DNA of 64,000 nucleotides. It comes from a virus. Position 1 is the first letter of the stretch. Every line of letters begins with the position of its first letter. Location of the stretch: positions 33,967-97,966 of IMG/VR virus record IMGVR_UViG_3300029258_003380; one strand, 5' to 3'. Made by a program: the position numbers and the translations under genes. Of this stretch, positions 6,109-63,076 are shown one piece after another. Under the pieces are notes generated by a model. That model was not told the DNA's origin, made no database searches, and saw nothing but the letters and a program-made list of their open reading frames with translations.

Positions 6109-7685
6109 TGACCGAGGCGATACACAAAGACTTTCGGCCGCCCCTAGGCCACCTTCCACGTGTGATCCAGGACGAGATGGTTCGGCCGCCATCGAGGGAG
6201 CGCCTTGTAAAACGTATCGCAGCGATGAAGGCGCACCACATCAACATGGCGCGAAAGTCTTCGTCAGCGTTCATGGAGTATGCCTTCTTGGACGAGGACA
6301 CAGGCTTGCCCTATGAGCAGCAGTGGTTTCATGACGAGTGGCATCTGGCTTGGGACCGTTATCAACGTGTGATGGTGATTGCTCCACGAGACCATGCCAA
6401 GACCAGTAATGTCGTGGGACGGGTAATCTGGGAGTTGGGCAGCAATCCGAATCTGCGTACGAAGGTAGTATGTGCCAGCGATGGGAAGGCTAAGGAGCGA
6501 CTTTATGAGATAGATCAGCACATCACTACCAATCCCAGGGTACGAGAAGTCTTCCCTGAACTGATGCCAAACCCCAATGCCCAATGGAACGCGCACCACC
6601 TGGTTCTGAAGCGTACGGCAAGACACAGAGACGCCTCTGTTGAGGCTCTTGGTATTACGTCGTCAGCGACAGGCGGACGCGCCGACCTGCTGCTTGCTGA
6701 CGATGTGGTAGACCGTCGTAACGCGCTCACAATGCCTGCACTGCGCGCACAGATTAAACAAGCATGGAAGTCGGACTGGGTAAATCTGCTAGAACCGACT
6801 GGCCGTCTCTTTTATATCTGTACATTGTGGCATCCGGGAGATCTGTCACATGAGATATTGGAAGGAAACACCTTCCATGTGCTCCGATACGACATAGACG
6901 ATAATTTTGGCGCGATGTGGCCGTCCAAGTGGAGCGAAGCTGCGCTTAGAATGCGGTATAACGAGATCCTGAGCATCGAGTTCAACCGAGCATTTCGTAA
7001 CCAGGCTATCGATCTGGATTCTGCCATGGTGCAGCCCTCGTGGTTTCAGTTCTGTGATTTGCGTACAGATGAACGGTTTGCTGAACTAGTGGAGCAGGAT
7101 AGCCTTGTATTTTTCACATCTTACGACCCGGCCGGAACACCGACTGGCAAGAAAGATCAGGACTATACAGCGGCTTGCATTGGAGCAGTAGACAAAGATC
7201 GGGGAGTTCTGTACATCGTCGACGCCTGGCGTCAGCGAATGTCCATAAAATCACTGGTAGATACAATCTTTGTCGAGGCAACGACATACGACCCGTGGCT
7301 TGTCCTGATCGAGAAGGTTGGTCAAGCCACAGTGGACGACTGGGTGATTAACGAATACCCACAGATGGAAGGACACATCAAGGTAACGAAGCCTCGGATT
7401 AGCAAGCAGATGCGTCTCCTAGGAACTACACCACTCCTGGAAAAAGGGAAGGTTGTGTTCTCGGCGCACTTGGATCCGAATAGTAAATTATTTGATGGTG
7501 CCAGGGGCTCTCTTGTAGACGAAATGATCGAGTTTCCATTTTCCAAGCATGACGACATGGTGGACTCGTTTTCACAGCTTGTTGCTGTCGCACGAACACA
7601 CTTCCTTGACGTGGACGCCGACGGCGGCGAAGATGTAATGGAGATCCGCATTGGCGACGAAGAGGAAGATGACTACGTATTCTAA
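6108..7685 (+). CDS. terL: terminase large subunit
   Basis: 525 residues, GTG start overlapping the previous stop. This is the motor that cuts and pumps phage DNA into the prohead through the portal. The N-terminal ATPase has a terminase-type Walker A at 93-100 (PRDHAKTS) and Walker B at about 193-199 (DLLLADD). The C-terminal RNase H-like nuclease has its first acid at D340 (SYDPAG), an IEKVG strand and the final acidic pair D482-D483 (KHDDMVDS). Length is normal for the family, and all key residues are present. Its last 17 bases overlap the next gene. Packaging mode (cos or headful) cannot be told. Confidence 0.95.
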   Translation: MTEAIHKDFRPPLGHLPRVIQDEMVRPPSRERLVKRIAAMKAHHINMARKSSSAFMEYAFLDEDTGLPYEQQWFHDEWHLAWDRYQRVMVIAPRDHAKTSNVVGRVIWELGSNPNLRTKVVCASDGKAKERLYEIDQHITTNPRVREVFPELMPNPNAQWNAHHLVLKRTARHRDASVEALGITSSATGGRADLLLADDVVDRRNALTMPALRAQIKQAWKSDWVNLLEPTGRLFYICTLWHPGDLSHEILEGNTFHVLRYDIDDNFGAMWPSKWSEAALRMRYNEILSIEFNRAFRNQAIDLDSAMVQPSWFQFCDLRTDERFAELVEQDSLVFFTSYDPAGTPTGKKDQDYTAACIGAVDKDRGVLYIVDAWRQRMSIKSLVDTIFVEATTYDPWLVLIEKVGQATVDDWVINEYPQMEGHIKVTKPRISKQMRLLGTTPLLEKGKVVFSAHLDPNSKLFDGARGSLVDEMIEFPFSKHDDMVDSFSQLVAVARTHFLDVDADGGEDVMEIRIGDEEEDDYVF

Positions 7686-29464: not shown

Positions 29465-30328
29465 ATGAAGACCACGAACGTCAAGCTACCGTCAGGCGCA
29501 GTAATTGAGATCAGGAAAATCTCACTCCGTGATGAGAACTTCCTCGCTGGTGCGGCAAGATCCAAACGCAAGAACAATGACAAGGTTCTGATCGAGGTGA
29601 TGTCCAGGTGCACAATTGGATTTGTGGAACCTGGCCCATACAAGGATGTGAACGCAGGAGACAAGGTTAAGTGGGACGACATGCTGTCCGGTGACTGGTT
29701 TGGGGCGATGATCGAACTTCGCAAATTCAGTTACAGGGAGGGTTCCAGCTACGACATACAGGTACAATGTCCAGCCCTTGGATGCAATAACAAGTTTGGA
29801 TGGAAGGTTGATCTGGACAAGGATTTATTTGTCAAGGGTCTACCGGAGGAGTCTGTAGAGGCGATGGCTGAGGGTAAGCCACTGTCGACGACAATCGATG
29901 GTCGTGTGGTGGAGTTCAACCTTGGATACGTCAAGGATAACGAAGCCCAGGATAAACTGGAGAAGCGATTTCCAGGTCGTGAGGTGTCGTGCATGCTCAG
30001 GTCCAGGATCGTCTCTGTGGAGGGTGTGGAACGTCAGGACATTTTGACATGGTTGGATGGGCTGAAGCGCGGCGGGGTAGAGTCTACAAAATACGAAGGA
30101 CTGTGTAGTGACGACACGGAAGATCTGCGAGCCGCGTTCGAAGAGGTCGACTGTGGTGTAGACACTGAAGTTGAGGTCGAATGTACAAAGTCCAGTTGTA
30201 GCGAGGTGTTTACATTAGACCTCCCTTTCGACAACATCTTCACGCCTGCGAGAGCGGCGGGGCAACGAAGAGCACGACGGGAGAGTCCGCCCAGGAAGGA
30301 AGAATCCGAGCGCCAATCGGAGGATTGA
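29465..30328 (+). CDS. tail assembly chaperone-like protein (T4 gp26-like)
   Basis: 287 residues with AAAGGAGG before the ATG. Between tube and tape measure, the usual place of tail assembly chaperones. VKLPSGAVIEIRKISLRDENFLAGAA opens as in gp26-like baseplate hub/chaperone proteins. Two similar Cys segments (about residue 100, QCPALGCNNKFGWKVDL; near 240, ECTKSSCSEVFTLDL) each have Cys pairs before a beta strand, a likely metal-binding repeat. The C-terminal 20 residues are basic and disordered. Four-base overlap with the next gene; no clear slippery site for a programmed frameshift. Confidence 0.55.
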   Translation: MKTTNVKLPSGAVIEIRKISLRDENFLAGAARSKRKNNDKVLIEVMSRCTIGFVEPGPYKDVNAGDKVKWDDMLSGDWFGAMIELRKFSYREGSSYDIQVQCPALGCNNKFGWKVDLDKDLFVKGLPEESVEAMAEGKPLSTTIDGRVVEFNLGYVKDNEAQDKLEKRFPGREVSCMLRSRIVSVEGVERQDILTWLDGLKRGGVESTKYEGLCSDDTEDLRAAFEEVDCGVDTEVEVECTKSSCSEVFTLDLPFDNIFTPARAAGQRRARRESPPRKEESERQSED

Positions 30329-30522
30329 CAGAAGAAGACGTCCGCATGCTTCGGTTCCATCTGTCATGGCTTCCACTGTTTGGCGCCGGTCTTCGGATCG
30401 GATACATGGAGACTTTGGATTTAGATATGGATGACGCGTTGGAACTGTTGAATATGGTAATCAAAGAACGCGATAGCGAGATACGCAGCGCGTTTGGGAA
30501 GGACCAGGGGACGTGGCTCTAA
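30325..30522 (+). CDS. second tail chaperone-like small protein
   Basis: 65 residues, TTG start overlapping the previous stop (TTGA), in the -1 frame. Helical (EEDVRMLRFHLSWLPLFGAGL, DMDDALELLNMVIKERDSEI), fitting the small second chaperone often found before the tape measure. Start inferred from the overlap; a fusion product by frameshift cannot be excluded. Confidence 0.5.
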   Translation: MTEEDVRMLRFHLSWLPLFGAGLRIGYMETLDLDMDDALELLNMVIKERDSEIRSAFGKDQGTWL

Positions 30523-33188
30523 ATAGAATGGGCGCCGGTTTCGTGTTAAAGGCCTACGATCAATCAACACCCGTGTTGCGTCGTATCGGCAGCGGTTTCC
30601 GGGGATTACGCAAGACAGTCAAGACGGCAACGATGGGGATGAGTAATTCCATGGCCAACACCGCCATGGGTTTCGCCGCGTTCCATGCAGGCCTCGGCAT
30701 GGTGAAACTGTCCAAGGTAGCTGCCGACTCCGCGTCGAAGTTTCAACAGAGTCTTGCCGCCGTTGGGAAGGTGGCGCGTGCTACAGAGAAAGAACTTGTG
30801 TTGTTGCACGACGCGGCTATCGAGGCCGCTCTCGGTACCAAATTTTCTCCTGATGAAGCGATAGAGGGACTGCAGACTCTGTCCGCTATGGGTCTCAAGG
30901 CCAAGGAATCGATCCAGGCGTTGAATCCTGTATTGGAGTTGGCAACGGGATCTCTGGGGCAGTTGGGTGTTGCCGGCGCCGCAGATGCCGTTATCGGTAC
31001 TGTCAAAGCCATGGGCTTCGAGATTGACCAAGCGGCACGTGTAACTAATCAGCTGCTCAAGATCACACAGATGACCAACTTTCAGAGCCGGGACTTCGCT
31101 GCGTCCATGGGACGTGTAGCTTCTACGGCCAAGTTGTACAATCAGTCTCTAGAGGATTCCCTGATCACAATGGGCCTGATGCGTAACATGAACATTGATG
31201 CATCAGTGGCATCGACTTCGTTACGGGAATCATGGAGAAGACTAGCAACGGACCAGCGTGCCCAGCAAGCAGTGGAAAAGCAGGGCATCAAGATATTCAG
31301 GGACAAAGACGGCAAGATTAGAGACATGTTGGGAGTTATGACCCAACTGGCGGATAAAACTAAGGACCTCAGAGACAAGGAGAAGATGCGTCTCATCACT
31401 GTAGCGTTCGGCGTTCGTGGCATGGCTGCGTTCAATGCCGTAGCTAACGCGACATATACAGTGATGAAGAATGGGGAGAAGATCAACCTGTCAGGGTCCA
31501 ACGCAATCAACGCTATGCGGTACGAGTTATCGGTAGCCGGCGAGACACTGACCGATGTGCAGAAAGAGAGTTTAAAAGCGGCACTTGGAGTGAAAGCGTT
31601 GAGTGATGTGCTTAAGACATCGGTTGGTGTATCCAGAGAGTTCAGGGACGCGCTGTTGGAGACATACGAGGGCCAGAAGCAATTGGTCAGTGGTGCTTGG
31701 AAGACACTTCTAGTTGTGATTGGAGAGGACTTCGCCAAGGCGATGAAGCCGGCAGCTCATGCACTTTATGAATTGGTCTCCGCTGTGACACTGTTTATCA
31801 AATCCATGTCACCACAGGCCAAGGCAACGGTGTTCAAGTTCGTCGTAGTGCTCGGTGGCCTGCTCATGTTGGGCGGTGGCCTGTTGTTGCTGTCGGGCGC
31901 TATGAACATGCTTGGCGGGTCGCTCCTTGGGTTTGTGTTCAGCATAGGTAAATTGCTTGTGATTGGTGCACCTCTGTTAATGATATTGTCCGGTCTGGGG
32001 ATCGGTTTTACGTCGTTGTTCAAAGCGATGAACTTGTTCAAGGGCGAAGGCATGGATGTCGCTCGCGTCATGGAAGTGGTACGCCTCGGTGCTTCTGGCA
32101 TGATGTCTATTCTTACCGGAGAGAAATTTTCGAAAGATCTTAAGGACAATCTGTCCAAGGCCGAAAACCAGGGGCTCGTCAAGTTCTTGCAGAAGTTCTC
32201 TCGGTGGATGGTTCGGATAAAGACTTTCTGGCGAGGCCTGACGGTTGGGTTCGAACAGGGCATTGCTATATTGTCCAAGTCGTCAGCGTTCAATAAGTTC
32301 AAGGAAAAGCTGGAAGGCATAATTGCTGTCTTCACGGGTCCAGACGCAGAGAACAGCGACAAAATACTCAAAGAGTGGGCACAACGCGGTGCCGAGGCAG
32401 GGAGAAAACTTGCGCGGCTCGGAGAGACAGCCGCCGATGTCGTAGGGAAGATAGTGGAGTTGGGCGGAGCCTTTTCTAAATTCATGGCCAACGTTACGGC
32501 AGAGGATATGCAAAAAGGGATCGATACGATGGTGGAAGGATTCCGTACATTTGCAACAGTACTGAGCACGGTGAAAACATTCTTCGGTCAGATCTACCAC
32601 GTGGTGAAATTGTTGCTTGTTGGGATCTATGAGCTTTTCGATATGATCGTCAGAGTTTCCACGATGGGCATTGAAACTGTATGGTCCAAGCTATTCGGAT
32701 CCGAGAAGGAGCAGAGAGCAGTTGCGTCATATTGGGATAAGGAATTCGCACAGAACCCACTGTTCGGAAACACAAAAAGCACAGCGTCTGATCTGGCCAA
32801 TCTTTACAACGCTGCAGCGGAGCAACAGGCTGAAAGCGAGGCCCGTGACGCAGAGTTTGCCAGGGCCAATGCGGGATATAAAGCGTTGAACGGTCTGCGG
32901 ACTCGCAAGGAAGCAGTGCAGGAAGGGATCAAGGTTCCGACTGCTGCCGTGAACGGACCAGGTGCTGAGAGCCTTCAGGGGAACAATCTGTTTGGTGGCG
33001 CTCAGAATGAAATGCAACAGCAGTTTCTGAAGGAGCTTGCAGGTATCAACCATAAACTGACAAAGATGGCAGACAATCCACAGCCGGTTTATATCGATGG
33101 TGAGAAGCTTGGGGAGATCAATGGACGCCAGCCATCAGTTACAGGGGAGGACTCACTTGATGAGGCGCCTGTCTCTGGGGGATTTTAG
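30513..33188 (+). CDS. tail tape measure protein
   Basis: 891 residues, GTG 30513 with AAGGA upstream (ATG 30528 is the alternative). Sets tail length and is delivered with DNA. Shows the TP901-type tape measure pattern: ATEKELVLLHDAAIEAALGT, FSPDEAIEGLQTLSAMGLK, ALNPVLELATGSLGQLGV, TNFQSRDFAASMGRVAS, and later strong hydrophobic segments near residues 437-510 (VFKFVVVLGGLLMLGGG, LLVIGAPLLMILSGLGIG) that could insert in the membrane. C-terminal third is helical with low sequence specificity. Length would predict a tail of roughly 130 nm if 1.5 angstrom per residue applies. Confidence 0.88.
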   Translation: MALNRMGAGFVLKAYDQSTPVLRRIGSGFRGLRKTVKTATMGMSNSMANTAMGFAAFHAGLGMVKLSKVAADSASKFQQSLAAVGKVARATEKELVLLHDAAIEAALGTKFSPDEAIEGLQTLSAMGLKAKESIQALNPVLELATGSLGQLGVAGAADAVIGTVKAMGFEIDQAARVTNQLLKITQMTNFQSRDFAASMGRVASTAKLYNQSLEDSLITMGLMRNMNIDASVASTSLRESWRRLATDQRAQQAVEKQGIKIFRDKDGKIRDMLGVMTQLADKTKDLRDKEKMRLITVAFGVRGMAAFNAVANATYTVMKNGEKINLSGSNAINAMRYELSVAGETLTDVQKESLKAALGVKALSDVLKTSVGVSREFRDALLETYEGQKQLVSGAWKTLLVVIGEDFAKAMKPAAHALYELVSAVTLFIKSMSPQAKATVFKFVVVLGGLLMLGGGLLLLSGAMNMLGGSLLGFVFSIGKLLVIGAPLLMILSGLGIGFTSLFKAMNLFKGEGMDVARVMEVVRLGASGMMSILTGEKFSKDLKDNLSKAENQGLVKFLQKFSRWMVRIKTFWRGLTVGFEQGIAILSKSSAFNKFKEKLEGIIAVFTGPDAENSDKILKEWAQRGAEAGRKLARLGETAADVVGKIVELGGAFSKFMANVTAEDMQKGIDTMVEGFRTFATVLSTVKTFFGQIYHVVKLLLVGIYELFDMIVRVSTMGIETVWSKLFGSEKEQRAVASYWDKEFAQNPLFGNTKSTASDLANLYNAAAEQQAESEARDAEFARANAGYKALNGLRTRKEAVQEGIKVPTAAVNGPGAESLQGNNLFGGAQNEMQQQFLKELAGINHKLTKMADNPQPVYIDGEKLGEINGRQPSVTGEDSLDEAPVSGGF

Positions 33189-44138: not shown

Positions 44139-45908
44139 ATGACAACGATGCCAAAGACAGGATTACGGACGCCGACAGATGGTGTCGATCCGTTTACAGC
44201 AATATTTGACAATGAGTTTGCGACCGACGTGGACGATTGGATCGATGCAAATGCGGCAGACCTAAATGCCAGTATTCGTGTCTCTGCGTACGGGGATTTA
44301 CCTAGGTATGACTCAGGATCTGGCAATGTCATATGGGGGAACTTTCGGATCCTTTCGCCGAGGTATACACTCGATCAGCAGGTGGCTTCTGGTTCTGCCG
44401 CGATAAGCAATGGACAGTGTCTCTACATCAACGCCCCGGCCCGCCCGTTTAATGGGGCAGTTGTTGTGCCAGTCGTTGCCGCGATGCCAATAACACCACG
44501 TGATAGAATCGTAGTCGGTATTCTTGTCGATGGTCAATTCTACCTGATGCCAAAGATATCCGACACAATGAAGGGCGCCCAAGGAGCGGCCATACCCCGC
44601 ACTGTTGTCGTTCAACATGGTGCGAACCCTGCAGCAAACGGAACCAACCTTATTGCCGCATACGCCACAGCAAAAACTATGAGTCCTACCTTGGCTTCCC
44701 GGGTTACAGTTGTTGTTCCACCTGGAGAGTACGACCTTGGCGCGTTGTCTTTGGCTGTCGATACTGACTATATCGATATAAAGGGATATGGTGAGGCCGC
44801 AATCGACCTGACTGATGGCACTCCATTTTACCCAGCGACATATATCCGCAGCAGTTCGGCAGTCGCCGTTTTGCAAATTACTGCGCGAACTTCTGACATA
44901 ACCAGGTTGCGAATAGGAAACACTGGGGCCGGTTCGGCTGTCAATATTGATGAAGTAAACGGTGCCGACGGTTTGAAGATGGAGTGGATCTATGCAACGG
45001 CTCCGACCAGTGGCATCGGTATCGGCGCTACTGGAACAACAAAGGCGATAAACAGTGGTTTCAAAAACTGTCTGTCAGTAGAATCCATTTTGAGGTGTCA
45101 GCAATTTGGTGGAACTGCGATGCAATGTGCCGGTGGTGCATATTCATTCTGTTCGTATCTTGGTGACACTACAAAAGTTGAATGCAACGGAGTGCTCATA
45201 GACTGTTGGACAACCAATTTTTCATATGGATACAACGACTCAGGAGACGCCGAAATATCGGGACGTCTTCTTCGTTGTTATGGGATGCAACATTGTTACG
45301 GAGTGTCACAAGGTGGCAGTCCATACTATGGAACGTTCAGCGCGGATGCCAGAAATTGCACCGCGACAGGTCACTCTTTTGGCGGCGGAGATGTTACATC
45401 TGGACAACATAGATTCACTGGAGAGGCACGTGATTGCTACTCTGGATTAGATTCGTTTGGCGGCAATGCAAATGGTTTGTTCAGTGGTATGGCATTGCGT
45501 TGTGAGGCCAACAATACTTCGTTCGGTTGCGGTGGAATGACAGGAAGTCTTGGCAATTGTGTTATTGTTGGTTTGATTTCCAATATGCTAGTTCCAACAG
45601 GTGGCCAGATTTATGACTCGTTTTTCGCTGCAGGTGGTGCATCTGTTGATGTGGACGGTGGGTATTTGAGAAATTGCATTGTTCAAACGCTGGATCCAAG
45701 CATTCCCGTTTTGATTACCAACTCTGCACCAAATAATCCACGTGTTGAAAAGTGCACAATTCACTCATACGCCGCTGCAAATGCCATTGGAGGCACTGGC
45801 ACAGGGTTGATCATTCACTGTTCTATGAACGTGCCCATACTTGGAACGGTGACAAACCTCGAAGCAACGCCCTATAATGTTGTCAACCCGGCAGTGGCGG
45901 CTGGATAG
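44139..45908 (+). CDS. right-handed beta-helix tail spike-like protein
   Basis: 589 residues. Residues about 150-560 form a pectate-lyase-like beta helix: VVVPPGEYDLGALSLAVDT, IDIKGYGEAAIDL then rungs such as RLLRCYGMQHCYG, DARNCTATGHSFGGG, EARDCYSGLDSFGG, ALRCEANNTSFGCGG, with a repeated Arg-x-Cys-then-Phe-Gly arrangement. Over 15 cysteines, unusual for a cytoplasmic-made spike. The N-terminal 110 residues are an attachment domain. May bind or cleave surface polysaccharide; catalytic residues not identifiable. Confidence 0.6.
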   Translation: MTTMPKTGLRTPTDGVDPFTAIFDNEFATDVDDWIDANAADLNASIRVSAYGDLPRYDSGSGNVIWGNFRILSPRYTLDQQVASGSAAISNGQCLYINAPARPFNGAVVVPVVAAMPITPRDRIVVGILVDGQFYLMPKISDTMKGAQGAAIPRTVVVQHGANPAANGTNLIAAYATAKTMSPTLASRVTVVVPPGEYDLGALSLAVDTDYIDIKGYGEAAIDLTDGTPFYPATYIRSSSAVAVLQITARTSDITRLRIGNTGAGSAVNIDEVNGADGLKMEWIYATAPTSGIGIGATGTTKAINSGFKNCLSVESILRCQQFGGTAMQCAGGAYSFCSYLGDTTKVECNGVLIDCWTTNFSYGYNDSGDAEISGRLLRCYGMQHCYGVSQGGSPYYGTFSADARNCTATGHSFGGGDVTSGQHRFTGEARDCYSGLDSFGGNANGLFSGMALRCEANNTSFGCGGMTGSLGNCVIVGLISNMLVPTGGQIYDSFFAAGGASVDVDGGYLRNCIVQTLDPSIPVLITNSAPNNPRVEKCTIHSYAAANAIGGTGTGLIIHCSMNVPILGTVTNLEATPYNVVNPAVAAG

Positions 45909-53174: not shown

Positions 53175-53202
53175 TTGACACGCAATGAAAAGCGTATATG
53201 AT
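53175..53202 (+). promoter_or_regulatory. early promoter P1 with internal palindrome
   Basis: TTGACA (53175-53180), 16-base spacer, TATGAT (53197-53202). ACACGC at 53178-53183 and GCGTAT at 53192-53197 make an inverted repeat with 8 bases between, placed within the promoter. Start near 53209 leaves a leader of about 35 bases to the ATG at 53244 with GAGGAG. Confidence 0.7.
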
Positions 53203-53243
53203 TAAACGTAATGAAACGCAACACACAAAACGAGGAGCAGACA

Positions 53244-53486
53244 ATGAGAGACCTACTATCCGAAATAATAATTGATGAACTGACAAACCTGCAAATCTCC
53301 AAAATAGAATCCGCTGGAAAAACCTCATACTCAGTAGACACGATAAAAAGACATGGATCCTATAATAACCTCTTGGTATGCGCAGACTTGCATACTGCTC
53401 TTGAACTATTTTTGACTACACAGAACGCAACAAGCTACGACCGAGCCAAGCGAATCTTTTTAAGAACGAATAGCCTAGCCAACTAG
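53244..53486 (+). CDS. small early protein
   Basis: 80 residues from ATG 53244, chosen for its GAGGAG site; an in-frame ATG at 53211 lies at the predicted transcript start. Helical N-terminus (MRDLLSEIIIDELTNLQISK) then mixed; C-terminal helix with YDRAKRIFLR. Sole gene of a short transcription unit between P1 and a terminator. No family recognised; by position a likely early host-takeover protein. Confidence 0.55.
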   Translation: MRDLLSEIIIDELTNLQISKIESAGKTSYSVDTIKRHGSYNNLLVCADLHTALELFLTTQNATSYDRAKRIFLRTNSLAN

Positions 53487-53508
53487 AGACGGTCCGTCCT
53501 GACCCCTC

Positions 53509-53538
53509 GCCTCGGTGTGTAATGCACCGGGGCTTTTT
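53509..53538 (+). terminator. Rho-independent terminator
   Basis: GCCTCGGTG (53509-53517) pairs with CACCGGGGC (53525-53533), 7-base loop, followed by TTTTT at 53534-53538. A regular intrinsic terminator at the end of the P1 unit. Confidence 0.85.
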
Positions 53539-54217: not shown

Positions 54218-54245
54218 TTTACACGGCATTGCAAACATGTATAAT
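54218..54245 (+). promoter_or_regulatory. early promoter P2
   Basis: TTTACA (54218-54223), 16-base spacer, perfect TATAAT (54240-54245). Keeps ACACG directly after the -35 as in P1 and P3 but the right half of the palindrome is weaker (CATGTAT). Drives the gene at 54332. Confidence 0.65.
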
Positions 54246-54331
54246 GATCTTAATGATTACGAAACAACATCTTTGCAAATGGACGGAAAAGGCAAACAGC
54301 TGCCGGCCAGCAATAACACAAGGAGGATCCC

Positions 54332-55819
54332 ATGAATAACGCACAGATCAAAGCAATAACCCGAACTGCCGAAGCCATTAAGCGCGCACGCACTGTGTTC
54401 GATGCTCAGACCCGCCGTTTAGCCCGTACATATATCAGAGACATTCCCAAGACAAACGTCAGCGACATGGCCGACATGGCCGAGAAGTTTGGCGAAGCAA
54501 TGGCCAAGTGTCTTGGTTGTGGGAACACCGTACCAGAAATTGTGGCTGCTCAACACGATGCTCGACGCATCGCAAGAGAAGGCATATCATCTGCGCCGGC
54601 ACAGGATGCAGCCACCAATCTCGACACTGACACCGATTCCGACACCGATCTCGACGCCGATTCCGACGGTGACACGGATACTCCTAAGCCTACAATTCAC
54701 GCCAGTGGCAAGATCCGCACGGTAGCCGAGGCCATTGCACTGGAGAGTGGTGCGCATCTTGGTGACTTGGTTGGCTGGTCATTGTCAGGTACACATCTCA
54801 AGGCCGACGTTGAGGCAGCTGCCGATGTTTGCGGCATTCTGGACGAGTTGCGATTACCCGGAAACACCCCCATCGCATGCTACAAAAAGGCCATCAGTCT
54901 TGTGTTCAACTCTGGGCGCCGTGAGTGTCGTGTCGAGGATGCCGTAATCGTAGAGGACAACGAGTTCCGCCTCGTGCACAGTATTGTAGAACGCCAGTTA
55001 GTGGATGACGCCGGCAACGAGGTCTCTGAAAAAGACGCGGAGTTCGCAACGATTACCAAGGTGGGATTCGACAGAGGCAATTATGCAGATGGTGCAGAGC
55101 CGAAGGATTGTCTGAAACTCCAAGATCCTGATCATCCAGCGGCCATCGCATTGAAAGAGGCCTATGAGGAATTGGCCTATACATACCTGACAGGGGACAT
55201 CCGGAGCGCCTTTCAGTTTGCATTTCGCAACTGGCATGCAGTTCCCACGTTGCCACATGGCGGCCTCTGGTACGTCCCAGCTATCCATGCTGAAAAGGTC
55301 AGGGCCTGGAACGCCTTCATGAGCGAGTTGAACCAGACCACGGTGATAATCCCATGTTTCGACACAGCCGAGACGATGGAGTCATTGCGCGAGGCCACAC
55401 GCCATGGTCTCGAAGCACAACTGAAAGAACTGACGCATCAACTCGACCAGTACAAGGCAGTTGGCTGGAACAAGATCAGAATCAGCACTTTGGAGAAAAG
55501 AGTCGAGGAGTTTGATACACTGCGGAACCGGGCCGAATTGTACAAAGACATCCTGGGGACGGTAGTAGACGATCTGTCATCAAAAGTTGACATTGCTGCA
55601 CAAGTCGTAGTTGGCAGTCTGGATCAGAAAAAATTCGAGGAGCAGAAAGAAAAGGAGATCGAGGCCAAGGCCAAAGAGGATGCCAAAGCCGCGAGGGCCA
55701 AGATCAGGGAAGCCAAAAAAGAACAGCGACGGAAGGGCAAAGAGGTGCGGGTTGGCAAAGAGGTCCGAGCTATCGATATGAGCAGACCGCCTAGTTTCCC
55801 ATTCCCAATTCAATACTAA
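54332..55819 (+). CDS. unknown protein next to MoxR/VWA genes
   Basis: 495 residues, AAGGAGGAT site. Three parts: a helical N-terminus (1-85) with one CxxC (CLGC), an Asp/Thr linker at about 97-117 with repeated DTDxDxD units, then a globular core 130-425 including GGLWYVPAIHAEKVRAW and LVFNSGRRECRVEDAV, and a Lys/Glu-rich coiled tail (430-495). Resembles uncharacterised phage proteins that neighbour MoxR-type genes; I am not certain of the family name. Possibly a substrate or partner of the ATPase pair. Confidence 0.55.
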   Translation: MNNAQIKAITRTAEAIKRARTVFDAQTRRLARTYIRDIPKTNVSDMADMAEKFGEAMAKCLGCGNTVPEIVAAQHDARRIAREGISSAPAQDAATNLDTDTDSDTDLDADSDGDTDTPKPTIHASGKIRTVAEAIALESGAHLGDLVGWSLSGTHLKADVEAAADVCGILDELRLPGNTPIACYKKAISLVFNSGRRECRVEDAVIVEDNEFRLVHSIVERQLVDDAGNEVSEKDAEFATITKVGFDRGNYADGAEPKDCLKLQDPDHPAAIALKEAYEELAYTYLTGDIRSAFQFAFRNWHAVPTLPHGGLWYVPAIHAEKVRAWNAFMSELNQTTVIIPCFDTAETMESLREATRHGLEAQLKELTHQLDQYKAVGWNKIRISTLEKRVEEFDTLRNRAELYKDILGTVVDDLSSKVDIAAQVVVGSLDQKKFEEQKEKEIEAKAKEDAKAARAKIREAKKEQRRKGKEVRVGKEVRAIDMSRPPSFPFPIQY

Positions 55820-55974: not shown

Positions 55975-56002
55975 TTGACACGCACAGAGAAGCGTGTATT
56001 AT
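55975..56002 (+). promoter_or_regulatory. early promoter P3 with perfect palindrome
   Basis: TTGACA (55975-55980), 16-base spacer, TATTAT (55997-56002). ACACGC (55978-55983), 8 bases, GCGTGT (55992-55997): a perfect 6-base inverted repeat in the same place as P1. Controls the MoxR/VWA genes. Upstream 55820-55970 shows only AT-rich sequence and no gene. Confidence 0.75.
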
Positions 56003-56070
56003 GGACTGGTGATTAGGATTTGCACACATAACAGCAACAAAGCACGGAACTCAGCGTTGGAGGTATCATC

Positions 56071-57246
56071 ATGACAAATAAAACAAGCGACCCCAATACA
56101 CGTCTCCAGGATGTACGCACCCAGTTGAAGGCTCGATTTGTCGAGCGCAGCGGGCCCGTTGACGGAACATTGACCGCTCTAATTGCCAAGGACCACGTAT
56201 TGCTTCTGGGCCCCCCAGGGACAGCTAAAAGTGACTACGCTGAAGCATTGAGCCGTTGTATAGATTCCTCATTCTTTGAGATTCAGTTGACCAAGGACAC
56301 GGCACCTGAAGAGGTCTTTGGAATGTTTAGTGCCAAGGCGATGATGGAGCAGGATCGGTACCAACGACGTATCGATGGATGTGCACCAGATCGTCAGGTG
56401 TGGTTCCTGGACGAGATCTTCAAGAGCAACTCAGCACTTCTGAATGGATTCCTTCTGGCCATGCAGCAACGCAGGATGCGGAACGGTGCGGACATGATCA
56501 AACTCCCGCTGGAGACGGTGATCGGGGCGAGCAACGAGTATCCGGAGGATGCCAGCCTAGACGCGTTGTACGACCGATTCGCGGTCAAGTTCTGGCTGGA
56601 CTACATCGGCGACCAGGACGCGCTTCTGAAGTTACTCGTGGATGGGCCGGCAGAGATAACTGCAAAGTTGGAAGTTGGCGATCTAGAAGAACTGCGGAAA
56701 CAGGCAGAATCGATTAAGTGGGGGATGGGCGAGGCCGAGACCCTTCTAGGGGTTAAAAGTGCCTGCGAAAAGGCTGGATTTACAGCTAGTGACAGGACAT
56801 GGATCGGGAAGGCTCCGAAGTTGATACGTGCCAGGGCGGTAGTGAATGGACACTCCCAAGTGCTGCCGAGCGATTTCCTGGTCTTGGCTGATGTGATCTG
56901 GAAGACGCACGAGGGTCGTCCAGAATTGCTCAAGGCCATCGGGAACGCTGCGGATCCATATGGTTCTCGTGCCACTTCAATAATCGATGGGGTGAGGATT
57001 GCGATGAAATCCCTGCCAACATTGGAAGATGTGAAGGTTGGAACGCTTACTAAATTAGCGGCTACAAGGACGCTTGGCGAAATACAGGGCAACCTTGCGG
57101 GCCGGCGCGATGCGATCATGGAGGTGCACGACAAGGTCGGGGATGATAACTTGCAAGTAAAAGAGGCCGTGGAAGTGGTCGAATTGGCCATGAATAAACT
57201 GGTGGATAGGGCGCGCGAGATCACGATGTACCGGCCGGTTGAGTAA
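56071..57246 (+). CDS. MoxR-type AAA+ ATPase (RavA-like)
   Basis: 391 residues, GGAGGT upstream. AAA+ motor of the MoxR family: Walker A G47-PPGTAK-S54, Walker B F112-L113-D114-E115, sensor-1-like N155 (GASNEY), and a DRFAVKFWLDYI arm with the likely arginine finger. MoxR proteins work with a VWA protein to remodel complexes or insert metal. The VWA gene follows after 12 bases, so both form a pair. The phage role is not known; options include host-protein remodelling, virion assembly help or defence/counter-defence. Confidence 0.85.
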   Translation: MTNKTSDPNTRLQDVRTQLKARFVERSGPVDGTLTALIAKDHVLLLGPPGTAKSDYAEALSRCIDSSFFEIQLTKDTAPEEVFGMFSAKAMMEQDRYQRRIDGCAPDRQVWFLDEIFKSNSALLNGFLLAMQQRRMRNGADMIKLPLETVIGASNEYPEDASLDALYDRFAVKFWLDYIGDQDALLKLLVDGPAEITAKLEVGDLEELRKQAESIKWGMGEAETLLGVKSACEKAGFTASDRTWIGKAPKLIRARAVVNGHSQVLPSDFLVLADVIWKTHEGRPELLKAIGNAADPYGSRATSIIDGVRIAMKSLPTLEDVKVGTLTKLAATRTLGEIQGNLAGRRDAIMEVHDKVGDDNLQVKEAVEVVELAMNKLVDRAREITMYRPVE

Positions 57247-57258
57247 TAGGAGAAGATC

Positions 57259-58719
57259 ATGAGTCTCATATACCAACCTAGCCAGTTTCAACGGCACCTG
57301 TGGAATGACTATACAATGGCTGACCAGGACGCGGCACGGGCCGAATCCGATGGTCGCGCTCGATACGAAGCATTTCCTGACTGGGCAGCTGAGATGTTTC
57401 ATTACTTTCACGCGGACACACCAGACAGGATGGAGACCCCCGCACCAGGATCGGATGTTTTCCAGCGATTCGATGCTGCGATGCAAGATGTTCCAGAGGT
57501 CACGGATCTGCGGGCACAGACCGTTGGCAACGATACATGGGCAGGCGTGGTTACAACATCAATGATAGATGACCTGTTGAAAAATGTGGCAGCACCAGAT
57601 GCACAGGTCGAGGACGTCAGGGAGGATGCTGCGACCGCAGATTATCTGGAACGACTATTAGCCGATGCGGACCACAGGGGAGACGAAGAAGAATGTGAAG
57701 CCATTGAAGACGCATTGGACGAGATGTATGGTGAAATGGAGAAAAAGGGCGCCGCAGCAAGCGAGGAAGCAGATCTCTTAGATATGACCAACGTACGACA
57801 GGCGCTGAGGAATGCAGCTGCAAACGCATCCGAGCAGATAGCACAGATGCAGGCGATGATCGATTCGTATGGTGTTGGCCTGGACAAGCACAGTGGACGC
57901 AAAGCTCAGATGGAGGCAGGAAGAAAACTGTCCAAGTTGGTTGGAGACAATGAACGACTTCGTAAGATAGCAGAACTTGCCGGCCGTCTTCGCAGGATCG
58001 CATCGGAACAACAACGACGTAAGCCTAGGTTTGGTGCGGGTGAGCGAGTGGGGCGGAAGTTTTCCAACGATCTCGGCAACCTGTGTTTCAGGGAGTTGGT
58101 GTACGGGGCCCCGGGGATGAGACATGTATTCGCAGCAAAATATGCGGAGAGCAACTTGGCGTGTAACGAGAAAGCCGACAAGCAGAAAGATCACAAGGGT
58201 CCGATTGTTATGTGTTTGGATTCGTCTGGATCCATGATGGCTGGAGACGCAGATGTGTGGGCTGCAGCGGTTTGTCTGGCATTTATGCAGGTAGCGAAGG
58301 AGCAGGATCGAGGATTTGCAATCGTACACTTTGGCAGTTCTGTTTTGCGTGTTGACAAGTTTCCCGGGAAAGATGCGATGACGCCAGAGGCAATAACGGA
58401 CGCGGTAAACTTTTTCGCAGCCGATGGTGGAACGAACTTCATGCGTAGTCTGGACTGTGCCGTGGATGTCATTCGGGAGCAGGGCGAGTTCAAGCAGGCA
58501 GATATAGTAATGGTGACGGACGGCCGATGCAGTATCTCGCCCCAGTGGAAGATCAAGTGGAATCGTAATCGTGATGAGTTGGACTTCAGATGTCACTCGA
58601 TTCTAGTAGGCACAGCCACAAGAAAAGAAATAAATGAGTCATTCAGTGACGAGACAGTTGTGTTGCAAGATGCAATGCGAGACGAGCATGACATGCATCA
58701 CATTTTTGGAAAAGTGTAG
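57259..58719 (+). CDS. VWA-domain partner of MoxR (ViaA-like)
   Basis: 486 residues, AGGAGAAG site. N-terminal 300 residues are helical with an acidic middle (EDALDEMYGEMEKKG) and a basic segment (RRKPRFGAGERVGRK). Residues about 316-480 are a VWA domain with an intact MIDAS: D321-SSGS-M326, T392 in DGGTN and D421 in VTDGR, so a divalent metal is bound. The arrangement of helical region then C-terminal VWA is that of ViaA. Coexpressed with the ATPase from P3. Confidence 0.85.
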   Translation: MSLIYQPSQFQRHLWNDYTMADQDAARAESDGRARYEAFPDWAAEMFHYFHADTPDRMETPAPGSDVFQRFDAAMQDVPEVTDLRAQTVGNDTWAGVVTTSMIDDLLKNVAAPDAQVEDVREDAATADYLERLLADADHRGDEEECEAIEDALDEMYGEMEKKGAAASEEADLLDMTNVRQALRNAAANASEQIAQMQAMIDSYGVGLDKHSGRKAQMEAGRKLSKLVGDNERLRKIAELAGRLRRIASEQQRRKPRFGAGERVGRKFSNDLGNLCFRELVYGAPGMRHVFAAKYAESNLACNEKADKQKDHKGPIVMCLDSSGSMMAGDADVWAAAVCLAFMQVAKEQDRGFAIVHFGSSVLRVDKFPGKDAMTPEAITDAVNFFAADGGTNFMRSLDCAVDVIREQGEFKQADIVMVTDGRCSISPQWKIKWNRNRDELDFRCHSILVGTATRKEINESFSDETVVLQDAMRDEHDMHHIFGKV

Positions 58720-58734
58720 TGATAAGGAGGTCGT

Positions 58735-59043
58735 ATGCCAAGTAAAAATGATGCCGAGATTGCGGCTAGGAAAATCGAAATCCTAGCCGAACTCATCAGT
58801 GGCAACCGAATCAATGGGAAGGATGGGGCGACCGTTATTAATAGGGTTTTCGAGCAATACATAAAAGCAGTTGTCGAGGGGGTTCATGCTTCTGCCAAGG
58901 ATCATGCCAGGGTTGTGTACGGTCTGGGTGTGGGACTCGATGCTGCACTGAAGGCCTTGAAACGCAAATCTCCCGTGATGGTTCGGTATATTGACGGCAA
59001 TGCCCTTATGACATGGATCATGGAGCCAGACGATGAATCATAG
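58735..59043 (+). CDS. small protein after MoxR/VWA pair
   Basis: 102 residues, AAGGAGGTC site. Helical, opening NDAEIAARKIEILAELISG, then KAVVEGVHASAKDHARVVYG and a hydrophobic end. Possibly third member of the P3 unit. No family recognised. Confidence 0.5.
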   Translation: MPSKNDAEIAARKIEILAELISGNRINGKDGATVINRVFEQYIKAVVEGVHASAKDHARVVYGLGVGLDAALKALKRKSPVMVRYIDGNALMTWIMEPDDES

Positions 59044-59071: not shown

Positions 59072-59100
59072 CTGACACGTCGACAGAATAGTGTTATACA
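59072..59100 (+). promoter_or_regulatory. promoter P4 before HTH gene
   Basis: CTGACA (59072-59077), 17-base spacer, TATACA (59095-59100). Also keeps ACACG after the -35. GACACGTC (59074-59081) has a near-inverse GACGTGTG just downstream (59113-59120), a possible operator for the adjacent regulator. Confidence 0.55.
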
Positions 59101-59148: not shown

Positions 59149-59403
59149 ATGAGTAAGGTGAATCAATTCAAGGCGAGGGTAGAGTTGCTGTGTAAGAAGC
59201 GCGGATGGACGCTGCGTGAACTAGCCCGTCAGATGGACAAGAGCCCACAAGGGCTTCACGACGTTTTGCAGCGTGGGGATCCGAAGGCATCTCTGTTACG
59301 CGAGTTTGGCCAAGTACTCGATGTGGGGCCAGACGAATTGCTGGAAGACGTTAGTCCCGCAGAATACGGCGAGGAGTTCATGCCGACGATGGACGAGGAG
59401 TAG
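59149..59403 (+). CDS. helix-turn-helix regulator (XRE/Cro-like)
   Basis: 84 residues from ATG 59149 (AAGGAGAA site; an in-frame upstream start at 59110 is less likely because it lies near the transcript start). HTH_3-like: RVELLCKKRGWTLRELARQM, DKSPQGLHDVLQRGD and LLREFGQVLDVGPDELL. It binds DNA as a dimer and probably represses its own promoter and perhaps the related promoters P1-P3; that regulation is inferred from shared elements. Acidic C-terminal tail. Confidence 0.8.
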   Translation: MSKVNQFKARVELLCKKRGWTLRELARQMDKSPQGLHDVLQRGDPKASLLREFGQVLDVGPDELLEDVSPAEYGEEFMPTMDEE

Positions 59404-60622: not shown

Positions 60623-61840
60623 ATGAACGCAAAGGTTGAATGGCTGAAAGGGCGCCAGAAAGGTGTCGGATCTTCTGACTCTCCTATTCTTGCCCTCGGA
60701 GAAGTTTTCAAGAAAACGCCTGTGGATCTATATATCACCAAGAAGAAGACGATCACGGCTGATGATGTTCTTTCCGAAGATGACAATCCACACCTGCGCC
60801 GTGGCAACACATACGAACCACTTGCAGTCGCAATGTACGAGGCACAGGAAGGAATCAAAGTTTACGCACCAGAGACTGATAAGGAGCGATATCACGACTT
60901 CCAGGTATGGGATCCGGACTCGCCAATGTTTGCAGACTTCGATGGTCTGTGTGCCGATGGCTGGGTACTGGAGATCAAAGCTCCGATGCAACGTGTATGT
61001 GACTCGTTCCGCACGACAGGTATACGGGACTACTACATGATCCAATCGGCTCACCTGGCGCATTGTGCGAACGTGTGCACGTTGCCATTCCTGGGTGACG
61101 AGTGGAAGGGGAAGATCAAGGGCACCAGGGTTGTGATATATGAGTGTGAAAATGTGGACCTCCAGATAATCGAGCTACCCATAGACGATGATGTAAGCGC
61201 GGTTTTGCAGGATAATGCGCGGAGATTCTGGAACGAAAACGTACTCAAGAGTGTTCCGCCGGCGGCTGCCAAGTTCACACAGCCTACGCTGGAGAAGAAA
61301 GGCAAAGCCGTCTACACACAGATGTCCGGTCAGGCATGGAAAGATGCTGTGGATACGTACAAATTGGCGAAAGAACGAGAACTAGCAGCCAAGGTCGGCA
61401 TGGAGGCGGCCAAGCGAACGATCATGGGTGTCATGGACGATGCGGACCTTGATGCGGTCCAGGTAGGTTTCCACAAATTCCTGAACAAGCAGCAAGCAGG
61501 CCGTAAGACATTCGACAAAAAAGCCCTTCAGGCGGATTACCCAGACATGGATTTGTCCATGTACGAAGTTCAGGGCAAGCCGTTCAAGACGTTTCGATAC
61601 TACGGGCCCAAAGACAGGAAGCAGTCCAAGCATGACGATGTTGGCGCAGAGATTATGACTGTTCAGACCGAACTGATCGAATTTGCTAAATCCAAGTTCG
61701 ATATCGAGGCAGGTGTAGAAACCTTCGACGAGTTGCGTGCCAGGGCAGATCTGTACGCAGCAATGTTGGAGATGGAAATAGGCGAAGTGCGAGACGCTAT
61801 CGAGAAAGCAGCCGATGCGGTCACGCAGAAATTAGGTTAG
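60623..61840 (+). CDS. YqaJ-type phage recombination exonuclease
   Basis: 405 residues, GGAGGAAAC site. Lambda-exonuclease/YqaJ fold: GVGSSDSPILALG near the start, RRGNTYEPLAVAMYE, then D107 (ADFDGL), E117 and K119 (LEIKAP) as catalytic residues, and an MIQSAHLAHCANV helix (QxxxY-like). It resects DNA ends to give 3' single strands that the RecT-like partner anneals. The C-terminal 190 residues are a helical extension (KLAKERELAAKVGMEAAKR). Pairs with the next gene. Confidence 0.88.
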   Translation: MNAKVEWLKGRQKGVGSSDSPILALGEVFKKTPVDLYITKKKTITADDVLSEDDNPHLRRGNTYEPLAVAMYEAQEGIKVYAPETDKERYHDFQVWDPDSPMFADFDGLCADGWVLEIKAPMQRVCDSFRTTGIRDYYMIQSAHLAHCANVCTLPFLGDEWKGKIKGTRVVIYECENVDLQIIELPIDDDVSAVLQDNARRFWNENVLKSVPPAAAKFTQPTLEKKGKAVYTQMSGQAWKDAVDTYKLAKERELAAKVGMEAAKRTIMGVMDDADLDAVQVGFHKFLNKQQAGRKTFDKKALQADYPDMDLSMYEVQGKPFKTFRYYGPKDRKQSKHDDVGAEIMTVQTELIEFAKSKFDIEAGVETFDELRARADLYAAMLEMEIGEVRDAIEKAADAVTQKLG

Positions 61841-61855: not shown

Positions 61856-63076
61856 ATGGCACATCCGAACTACAGAACGATAGAAAAATGGTTGGAGTCA
61901 CAGGGCATTAGGGAGATGATAGACGAATCACTTCCTGACGGTATCTCGACAGATGCGTGGATCAATTCCGCACTGACTCATATTGGCAGCGACAAAGATT
62001 TGCTCGAGGCGGACCCACAGTCAACACTGGGTTCGATTCTTGAAGCATCTACACTTGGTGTTCGGTTCGAGGGACCACTGGGGGAAGCCTACCTCGAGGC
62101 TCGTTCATCCAAGTACAAGGCTGACGACGGTACGTGGCAGTGGCGCAAGCTCACACAGTTGCAGATTCAGTACCGTGGACTAATGAAGTTGGCTCGCCGT
62201 GACCCGTTGGTGCGCAAGGTCGAGGCCATCATTGTTCACGAGAACGATGTCTTTGATCATCGCCTTGGTAGTGATCCATATCTGAATCACACATGGGACG
62301 TCAGGAAACAGCGCGGCAAAATGGTCGCTGTGTACGCAGCACTCAGGTATCACGATGGTTTTTATGATTTCGGTCAGCCGTACCCGATGAGTGCAATATA
62401 CAAGCACAGGGATCGTATTCTTTCAGACAAGAACATTCGTGTTGAGCGCAGGGATGACGGATCCGAGGTGTTCTGGAAGACGTGGAAGGAAGGCAAACCA
62501 GAAGAGGCTATGGCTGACTTTCAGATCCGACGCATTCCCTGGATCACCTATATCGAGGCAATGGCGCAGAAGACCGCTGTACGTTGGAGCGCGAAATTCT
62601 GGGATCTCTCACCTGAGTTTGATAAGGCAGCTGCTTTAGTCAGCCTGGCCGAGTCCAGCAAGGGGCAGTCCATGGTCGATGTTGCGCGCAACGTTGTGGG
62701 CTCGGAAGTTCTAGACGGGCCTGACAGCCCGTCAGGGGGCGCTACAGACGATGCCCAGGTCCAGGGGCGTAGTATCCTCAGAATGGGCACGCTCAAGGAG
62801 AGGATGCTTGCCGAGACAGGTGTGCAGGTCGACGATGCCCCAAGCGAGAATGAACAACGCGTGGAACTGGACGAATCAGAATTGGCACGTAAAGATGCCG
62901 ATGACCAGGCACAAGGCGGCGAATTATCCGAGAAGGACAAAGAGGAGGCTTTGGCGTTGGAGCAGGAAGAAGCTAGGGAGTTTGCCAGACAACAGGAAGA
63001 GCAGGTCAAGCAAGGTGGCAAGTCAAAAAAGAAAAATCCATCGAAAAATACCGGCCGTGGCCGCAGTAACAATTAG
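61856..63076 (+). CDS. recT: RecT-family single-strand annealing protein
   Basis: 406 residues, AGGAAGAGG site. RecT pattern: ALTHIGSDKDLLEADPQSTL, GSILEASTLGVRFEGPLGEA, QLQIQYRGLMKLARRDPLV, IIVHENDVFD, ALRYHDGFYDF and IPWITYIEAMAQKTAVRWSA. Coats single strands and pairs homologous DNA. The C-terminal 120 residues are acidic then Lys-rich and disordered (KSKKKNPSKNTGRGRSNN). Works with the adjacent exonuclease. Confidence 0.92.
   Translation: MAHPNYRTIEKWLESQGIREMIDESLPDGISTDAWINSALTHIGSDKDLLEADPQSTLGSILEASTLGVRFEGPLGEAYLEARSSKYKADDGTWQWRKLTQLQIQYRGLMKLARRDPLVRKVEAIIVHENDVFDHRLGSDPYLNHTWDVRKQRGKMVAVYAALRYHDGFYDFGQPYPMSAIYKHRDRILSDKNIRVERRDDGSEVFWKTWKEGKPEEAMADFQIRRIPWITYIEAMAQKTAVRWSAKFWDLSPEFDKAAALVSLAESSKGQSMVDVARNVVGSEVLDGPDSPSGGATDDAQVQGRSILRMGTLKERMLAETGVQVDDAPSENEQRVELDESELARKDADDQAQGGELSEKDKEEALALEQEEAREFARQQEEQVKQGGKSKKKNPSKNTGRGRSNN

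Follow-up and report, generated by a model that had tools for sequence, protein, structure and literature searches.

A conserved sigma70-type promoter family ahead of non-structural genes in an uncultured tailed phage, with a palindrome at two of its members

Does the palindrome that overlaps the promoter at 53175-53202 mark an operator shared by several early phage promoters, or does it follow from the promoter consensus itself? The former view was advanced in a sequence-only reading of the window (the whole stretch of 64,000 nucleotides analysed here, bases 33967-97966 of a 97,966-bp record), which described four promoters, P1 to P4, with a common palindromic operator and proposed the HTH protein encoded behind P4 as their shared repressor.

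The record (G0) encodes a tail sheath, a portal and a large terminase and derives from a tailed, uncultured phage, with nearly all genes on one strand. It was compared with two close relatives, G1 (94,958 bp) and G2 (37,600 bp), which have most genes in common with it, and with the more distant G3 and G4. The first gene of the record (160-480) and the last (97046-97966) both match one single G1 gene, so that the map is circular or permuted and the P1-P4 region runs on into the left-hand 38 kb. The resulting non-structural arc includes a DnaB-like helicase, a topoisomerase, DNA methyltransferases, ParB-like and recombination functions; the structural genes form one block of ~47 kb, at about 39-86 kb of the genome. 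Host searches with the tail sheath and terminase as queries against genome contigs returned no match, and scans for tRNAs and Rfam families found nothing in the record. A search for a phage-type RNA polymerase gave no match, but its control likewise matched nothing. The features relevant to the question are listed below, in window coordinates unless stated otherwise.

53175-53202, + strand: promoter P1, TTGACA-cgcaatgaaaagcgta-TATGAT (16-bp spacer; 11 of 12 hexamer positions), with an upstream A/T tract, before the gene for an 80-aa protein; ortholog in G1 and G2
53178-53197, no strand: imperfect palindrome of P1, ACACGC-N8-GCGTAT, 5 of 6 pairs; not kept in relatives
53203-53225, 54246-54262 and 56003-56020, and genome 12151, 21019 and 31597: shared start-of-transcript motif
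53244-53486, + strand: 80-aa protein behind P1, without a family match
53509-53533, + strand: intrinsic-terminator-like hairpin and T run closing the P1 unit, recognised from sequence
54218-54245, + strand: promoter P2, TTTACA-N16-TATAAT, 11 of 12; the G1/G2 ortholog reads TTTACG-N16-TAGAAT
54332-55819, + strand: DUF6744 protein of 495 aa, behind P2
55975-56002, + strand: promoter P3, TTGACA-N16-TATTAT, 11 of 12; the G1/G2 ortholog reads TTGACC-N16-TATTAT
55978-55997, no strand: perfect palindrome of P3, ACACGC-N8-GCGTGT, 6 of 6 pairs; missing at the orthologous promoter
56071-57246, + strand: MoxR/RavA-like AAA+ ATPase, behind P3
57259-58719, + strand: VWA-domain protein (ViaA-like partner)
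58735-59043, + strand: conserved hypothetical protein of 102 aa, the last gene before P4
59056-59100, + strand: P4 region, CTGACA at 59072 with a weak -10, either TTATAC at 16 bp or TATACA at 17 bp
59149-59403, + strand: 84-aa XRE/HTH_3 protein with a 434/SinR-like fold, from Pfam, sequence and predicted structure
60623-61840, + strand: YqaJ/RecE-like exonuclease, downstream of the HTH gene
61856-63076, + strand: RecT-like annealing protein, downstream of the HTH gene

The promoters themselves were addressed by counting intergenic pairs of -35 and -10 hexamers on the coding strand with at least 10 of 12 matches to TTGACA/TATAAT and spacers of 15-18 bp. Eight such sites with a spacer of exactly 16 bp occur across the whole record, while spacers of 15, 17 or 18 bp yielded none; shuffled intergenic DNA contained 0.23 such sites on average and two at most. 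Sigma70-like hexamers at an accepted spacing (16-18 bp) are thus present well above chance. The sites lie at genome positions 12123, 20991, 29621, 31569, 87141 (P1), 88184 (P2), 89941 (P3) and 93046, the eighth being a weak alternative for P4. A 16-base spacer had been reported for three promoters, and indeed P1, P2 and P3 each combine it with 11 of 12 matches. The reported family of four is likewise real, and larger than described, since the four members left of the window (the first four positions above) had been overlooked; P4 fits it less well, the CTGACA at 59072 having only TTATAC at 16 bp, which is not a good -10. Reading P4 as TCGACA-16-TAGAAT (59080) was rejected, this arrangement not being conserved in G1 and G2. 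None of the eight sites falls inside the 47-kb structural block, an absence which is merely suggestive because the block holds just 14% of the intergenic bases. Overall, the sequence evidence supports well a real family of at least seven near-identical sigma70-type promoters ahead of non-structural genes. The strict family pattern, run over viral contigs, found no match, and no description of the promoter set was found in the literature searched.

Conservation among these sites extends beyond the hexamers. In the best G0 and G1 sites, the other strongly conserved columns are an upstream A-tract, a CG that follows the -35, AA in the spacer (its positions 10-11) and a TG that abuts the -10; the module also holds GAA in the spacer, at about -20 to -18. 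Most members share a predicted transcript start, GTA-TGATGATT, just after the -10, and downstream of the -10 four sites have an exact ATGATT in common. Allowing one mismatch, TGATGATT occurs no more than 22 nt from the -10 at five of the seven sites, against 1.9% of intergenic positions, for a motif chosen post hoc after inspection. The optimum in E. coli is a 17-bp spacer with TGnTATAAT, and the phage departs from it both in its 16-bp spacer and in the TG that touches the -10.

Alignments place orthologs of P2, P3 and P4 at the same location before the same genes in G1 and G2, and in the P1 slot the promoter persists in front of a different gene. The P1 unit of G0 (53244-53533) consists of the single 80-aa gene and its terminator, while the G1 slot instead contains an HNH-endonuclease-like gene; the promoter slot is thus kept and its cargo swapped. 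The alignments for P1-P3 retain the A-tract, the -35, the 16-bp spacer and the -10, so that siting before non-structural genes is accompanied by conservation in relatives. A matrix trained on the G0 promoters alone and then scanned over G1 and G2 ranked the orthologs of P1-P4 as the top four in both, with scores of 6.9 for P1 and 14-28 for the other three, against a maximum of 6.2 in Markov sequences. The ranking confirms the family independently, strongly in the case of P2-P4 and marginally in that of P1. In G3 and G4 the A-tract, a TTGTCA/TTTACA-like -35 and the 16 bp are kept, followed by GAATAA or GTAAGA at the place of the -10; as this element has diverged, plain sigma70 may not be the partner of the polymerase in every member of the group. 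Two G3 promoters (piece L038, 800-850 and 3200-3250) have TGACAA-N8-TTGTCA over the A-tract and -35, and continue as TTGTCA-N16-GAATAAGTA, with a -10 unlike TATAAT. The RavA/ViaA-like pair of MoxR ATPase and VWA protein (56071-58719), which adjoins the DUF6744 gene, is also conserved in the phage group.

The proposed repressor is an XRE/HTH_3 protein by Pfam, near SinR and the 434 repressor in sequence, and is the sole HTH_3 match in the record. Its predicted structure (mean pLDDT 81) is a single domain for which Foldseek returned the same 434/SinR fold at a TM of about 0.6, but with weak E-values (≥0.02); the 84 residues are in agreement with a five-helix domain of the HTH_3/434 type. The protein is 70% identical in G1 and G2, where its recognition helix is nearly unchanged, and 47-57% identical in G3 and G4. 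The order of the HTH, exonuclease and RecT genes is conserved in relatives.

Under the shared-operator proposal, this protein would bind ACACGC-N8-GCGTRT over the spacers of P1 and P3, with half-sites at P2 and P4, and shut off early transcription. Several observations behind it were borne out: the palindromes of P1 and P3 do occupy the identical spacer register, P2 and P4 do keep ACACG after the -35, and a 434/SinR-type HTH gene does lie directly behind P4. Two complete sites among seven are, moreover, mildly unusual by column shuffle (P = 0.04), whereas permutation of whole right arms gives two in 14% of cases (P = 0.14). The full palindrome is nevertheless confined to P3 (6/6) and P1 (5/6), two of the seven family sites rather than all promoters of the supposed regulon; at the 12123 member the left arm is present without the right, and over the whole family the two arms show no co-variation (14 of 28 paired cells against 13.4 expected). 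It is absent from every locus examined outside the window and from all P1 and P3 orthologs in G1 and G2, those of P3 reading TTGACCggtacgttgaaa(tat/cgt)gTATTAT, with the promoter retained and the palindrome gone. With an HTH protein 70% identical and a near-identical recognition helix, an operator should have been kept; here the regulator is conserved and neither the site nor pairing between its arms is. The genome-wide search suggested for further operators, TTGACACG-N10-GCGTNTAT, specifies a wrong gap (N9 being correct) and, even at three mismatches, misses P1 and P3 and finds no family member. We therefore regard a shared repressor acting through this palindrome as very improbable. In the promoter module itself ACACG follows the -35 and TGTAT is found at the -10, which would account for the palindrome at P1 and P3, and we conclude that it is a by-product of the promoter consensus and not a conserved operator.

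We consider it highly probable, judging from sequence, that P1-P3 and the four sites outside the window constitute one family of strong sigma70-type early promoters for the host RNA polymerase, the palindrome arising from their consensus. Sites with such -35 and -10 elements are recognised by the housekeeping-sigma holoenzyme. Host polymerase would read P1-P3 and the four further sites, most likely straight after infection, through a module comprising an UP-element-like A-tract, TTGACA, a spacer fixed at 16 bp that contains GAA and has TG against the -10, TATNAT and a start near GTA-TGATGATT. The early timing is plausible given that the sites lie in the non-structural arc and resemble promoters of host RNA polymerase. 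That spacer positions and the initial transcript are unusually well conserved, and that G3 and G4 retain the layout with a divergent -10, could also point to a phage-specific promoter class, in which a phage factor (a virion or early protein) reads the spacer GAA (-20 to -18), the TG abutting the -10 and the transcript start at GTA-TGATGATT. Yet the near-perfect boxes of P1-P3 need no helper and no sigma region 4 (r4) domain was found in the phage record, and we think such a class unlikely. Within the host-polymerase family, P4 would be a divergent, weaker relative ahead of the XRE-type HTH gene, whose product may act on its own P4 region. That this gene stands right behind P4 agrees with the sequence-only reading, and the placement is conserved; its role as shared repressor is not supported, and at most autoregulation is indicated. 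The best-conserved candidate site for the protein is AACAC-N18-GTGTT at P4 (59068-59095), present in G0, G1 and G2 and unique in the window at zero mismatches. Binding of this P4 sequence (AACACTGAC-CGTC...GTGTTAT), by which the protein would tune its own recombination operon of YqaJ exonuclease and RecT, is in keeping with the conserved gene order, although the conserved stretch may be just the promoter, the site is not conserved in G3 and G4 (HTH proteins 47-57% identical), and arms of 4-6 bases set 18 bases apart are weak. We accordingly treat this particular mechanism as a tentative possibility; as a target for the HTH protein, its own P4 region is more likely than P1 or P3. As a genome-wide operator, AACAC-N18-GTGTT was rejected, P4 being the sole zero-mismatch match. 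G4 has a direct repeat, AAAAATATTTGCT, at a spacing of about 20 bp upstream of its HTH gene (genome 73330-73420).

Comparison with known systems places the promoters among familiar ones. The early promoters of T4 combine UP, -35, TGn and -10 elements read with host sigma70 and carry an extra consensus (PMC2988021). The present family resembles them in its multiple intergenic near-consensus copies, its upstream A/T tract, its extra consensus beyond the core and its service to non-structural genes; it differs in the fixed 16-bp spacer, the TG touching the -10 and the shared initial-transcript motif. The operators of lambda and 434 Cro/CI offer an HTH protein of the same fold (434 repressor and SinR are among the best matches) and palindromes that overlap promoter elements. 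Unlike them, the palindrome considered here is neither conserved nor found at all promoters, and we found no divergent switch and no integrase. Stoperators of the mycobacteriophage L5 type are asymmetric 13-mers, also situated outside promoters, and are bound in temperate phages by a two-domain repressor of 183 aa (PMC9283540). The idea of one repressor with many genome sites is common to both, but in the present phage each site is an entire promoter and the HTH protein has one domain and 84 aa; rather than scattered asymmetric sites of ~13 bp and a two-domain repressor, we find full sites within promoters only. What the analysis supports well is an ordinary phage early-promoter family, larger than first reported; the claim of an operator is not supported.

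The family offers a sharp, conserved and putatively early promoter signature for an undescribed environmental myovirus group, which can serve to annotate the transcription units of related contigs. The case also illustrates why a palindrome found at two promoters needs to be compared with the rest of the family and with related phages before being called an operator.

Neither a tyrosine or serine recombinase/integrase nor an equivalent lysogeny module, as in a temperate-phage repressor system, was matched in the record, and a lysogeny-type master repressor is thus not indicated. The non-structural genes of the left arm include several DNA methyltransferase and ParB-like partition matches, without an integrase; given the ParB-like PHROG match in the record, a plasmid-like persistence of the phage may be conceivable. 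Another conserved palindrome occurs at about 30122-30370 of the genome, where a small ribbon-helix-helix-like gene has a promoter with GTATATAC palindromes at the -35/-10 or at the start codon. The start codon of this gene lies about where transcription should begin, which suggests a leaderless mRNA. The arrangement is kept in G0, G1 (45360-45420) and G4 (6320-6390), G5 has a GTATATAC site at 32336, and as a conserved palindrome for autoregulation we consider this site a better candidate than those of P1 and P3.
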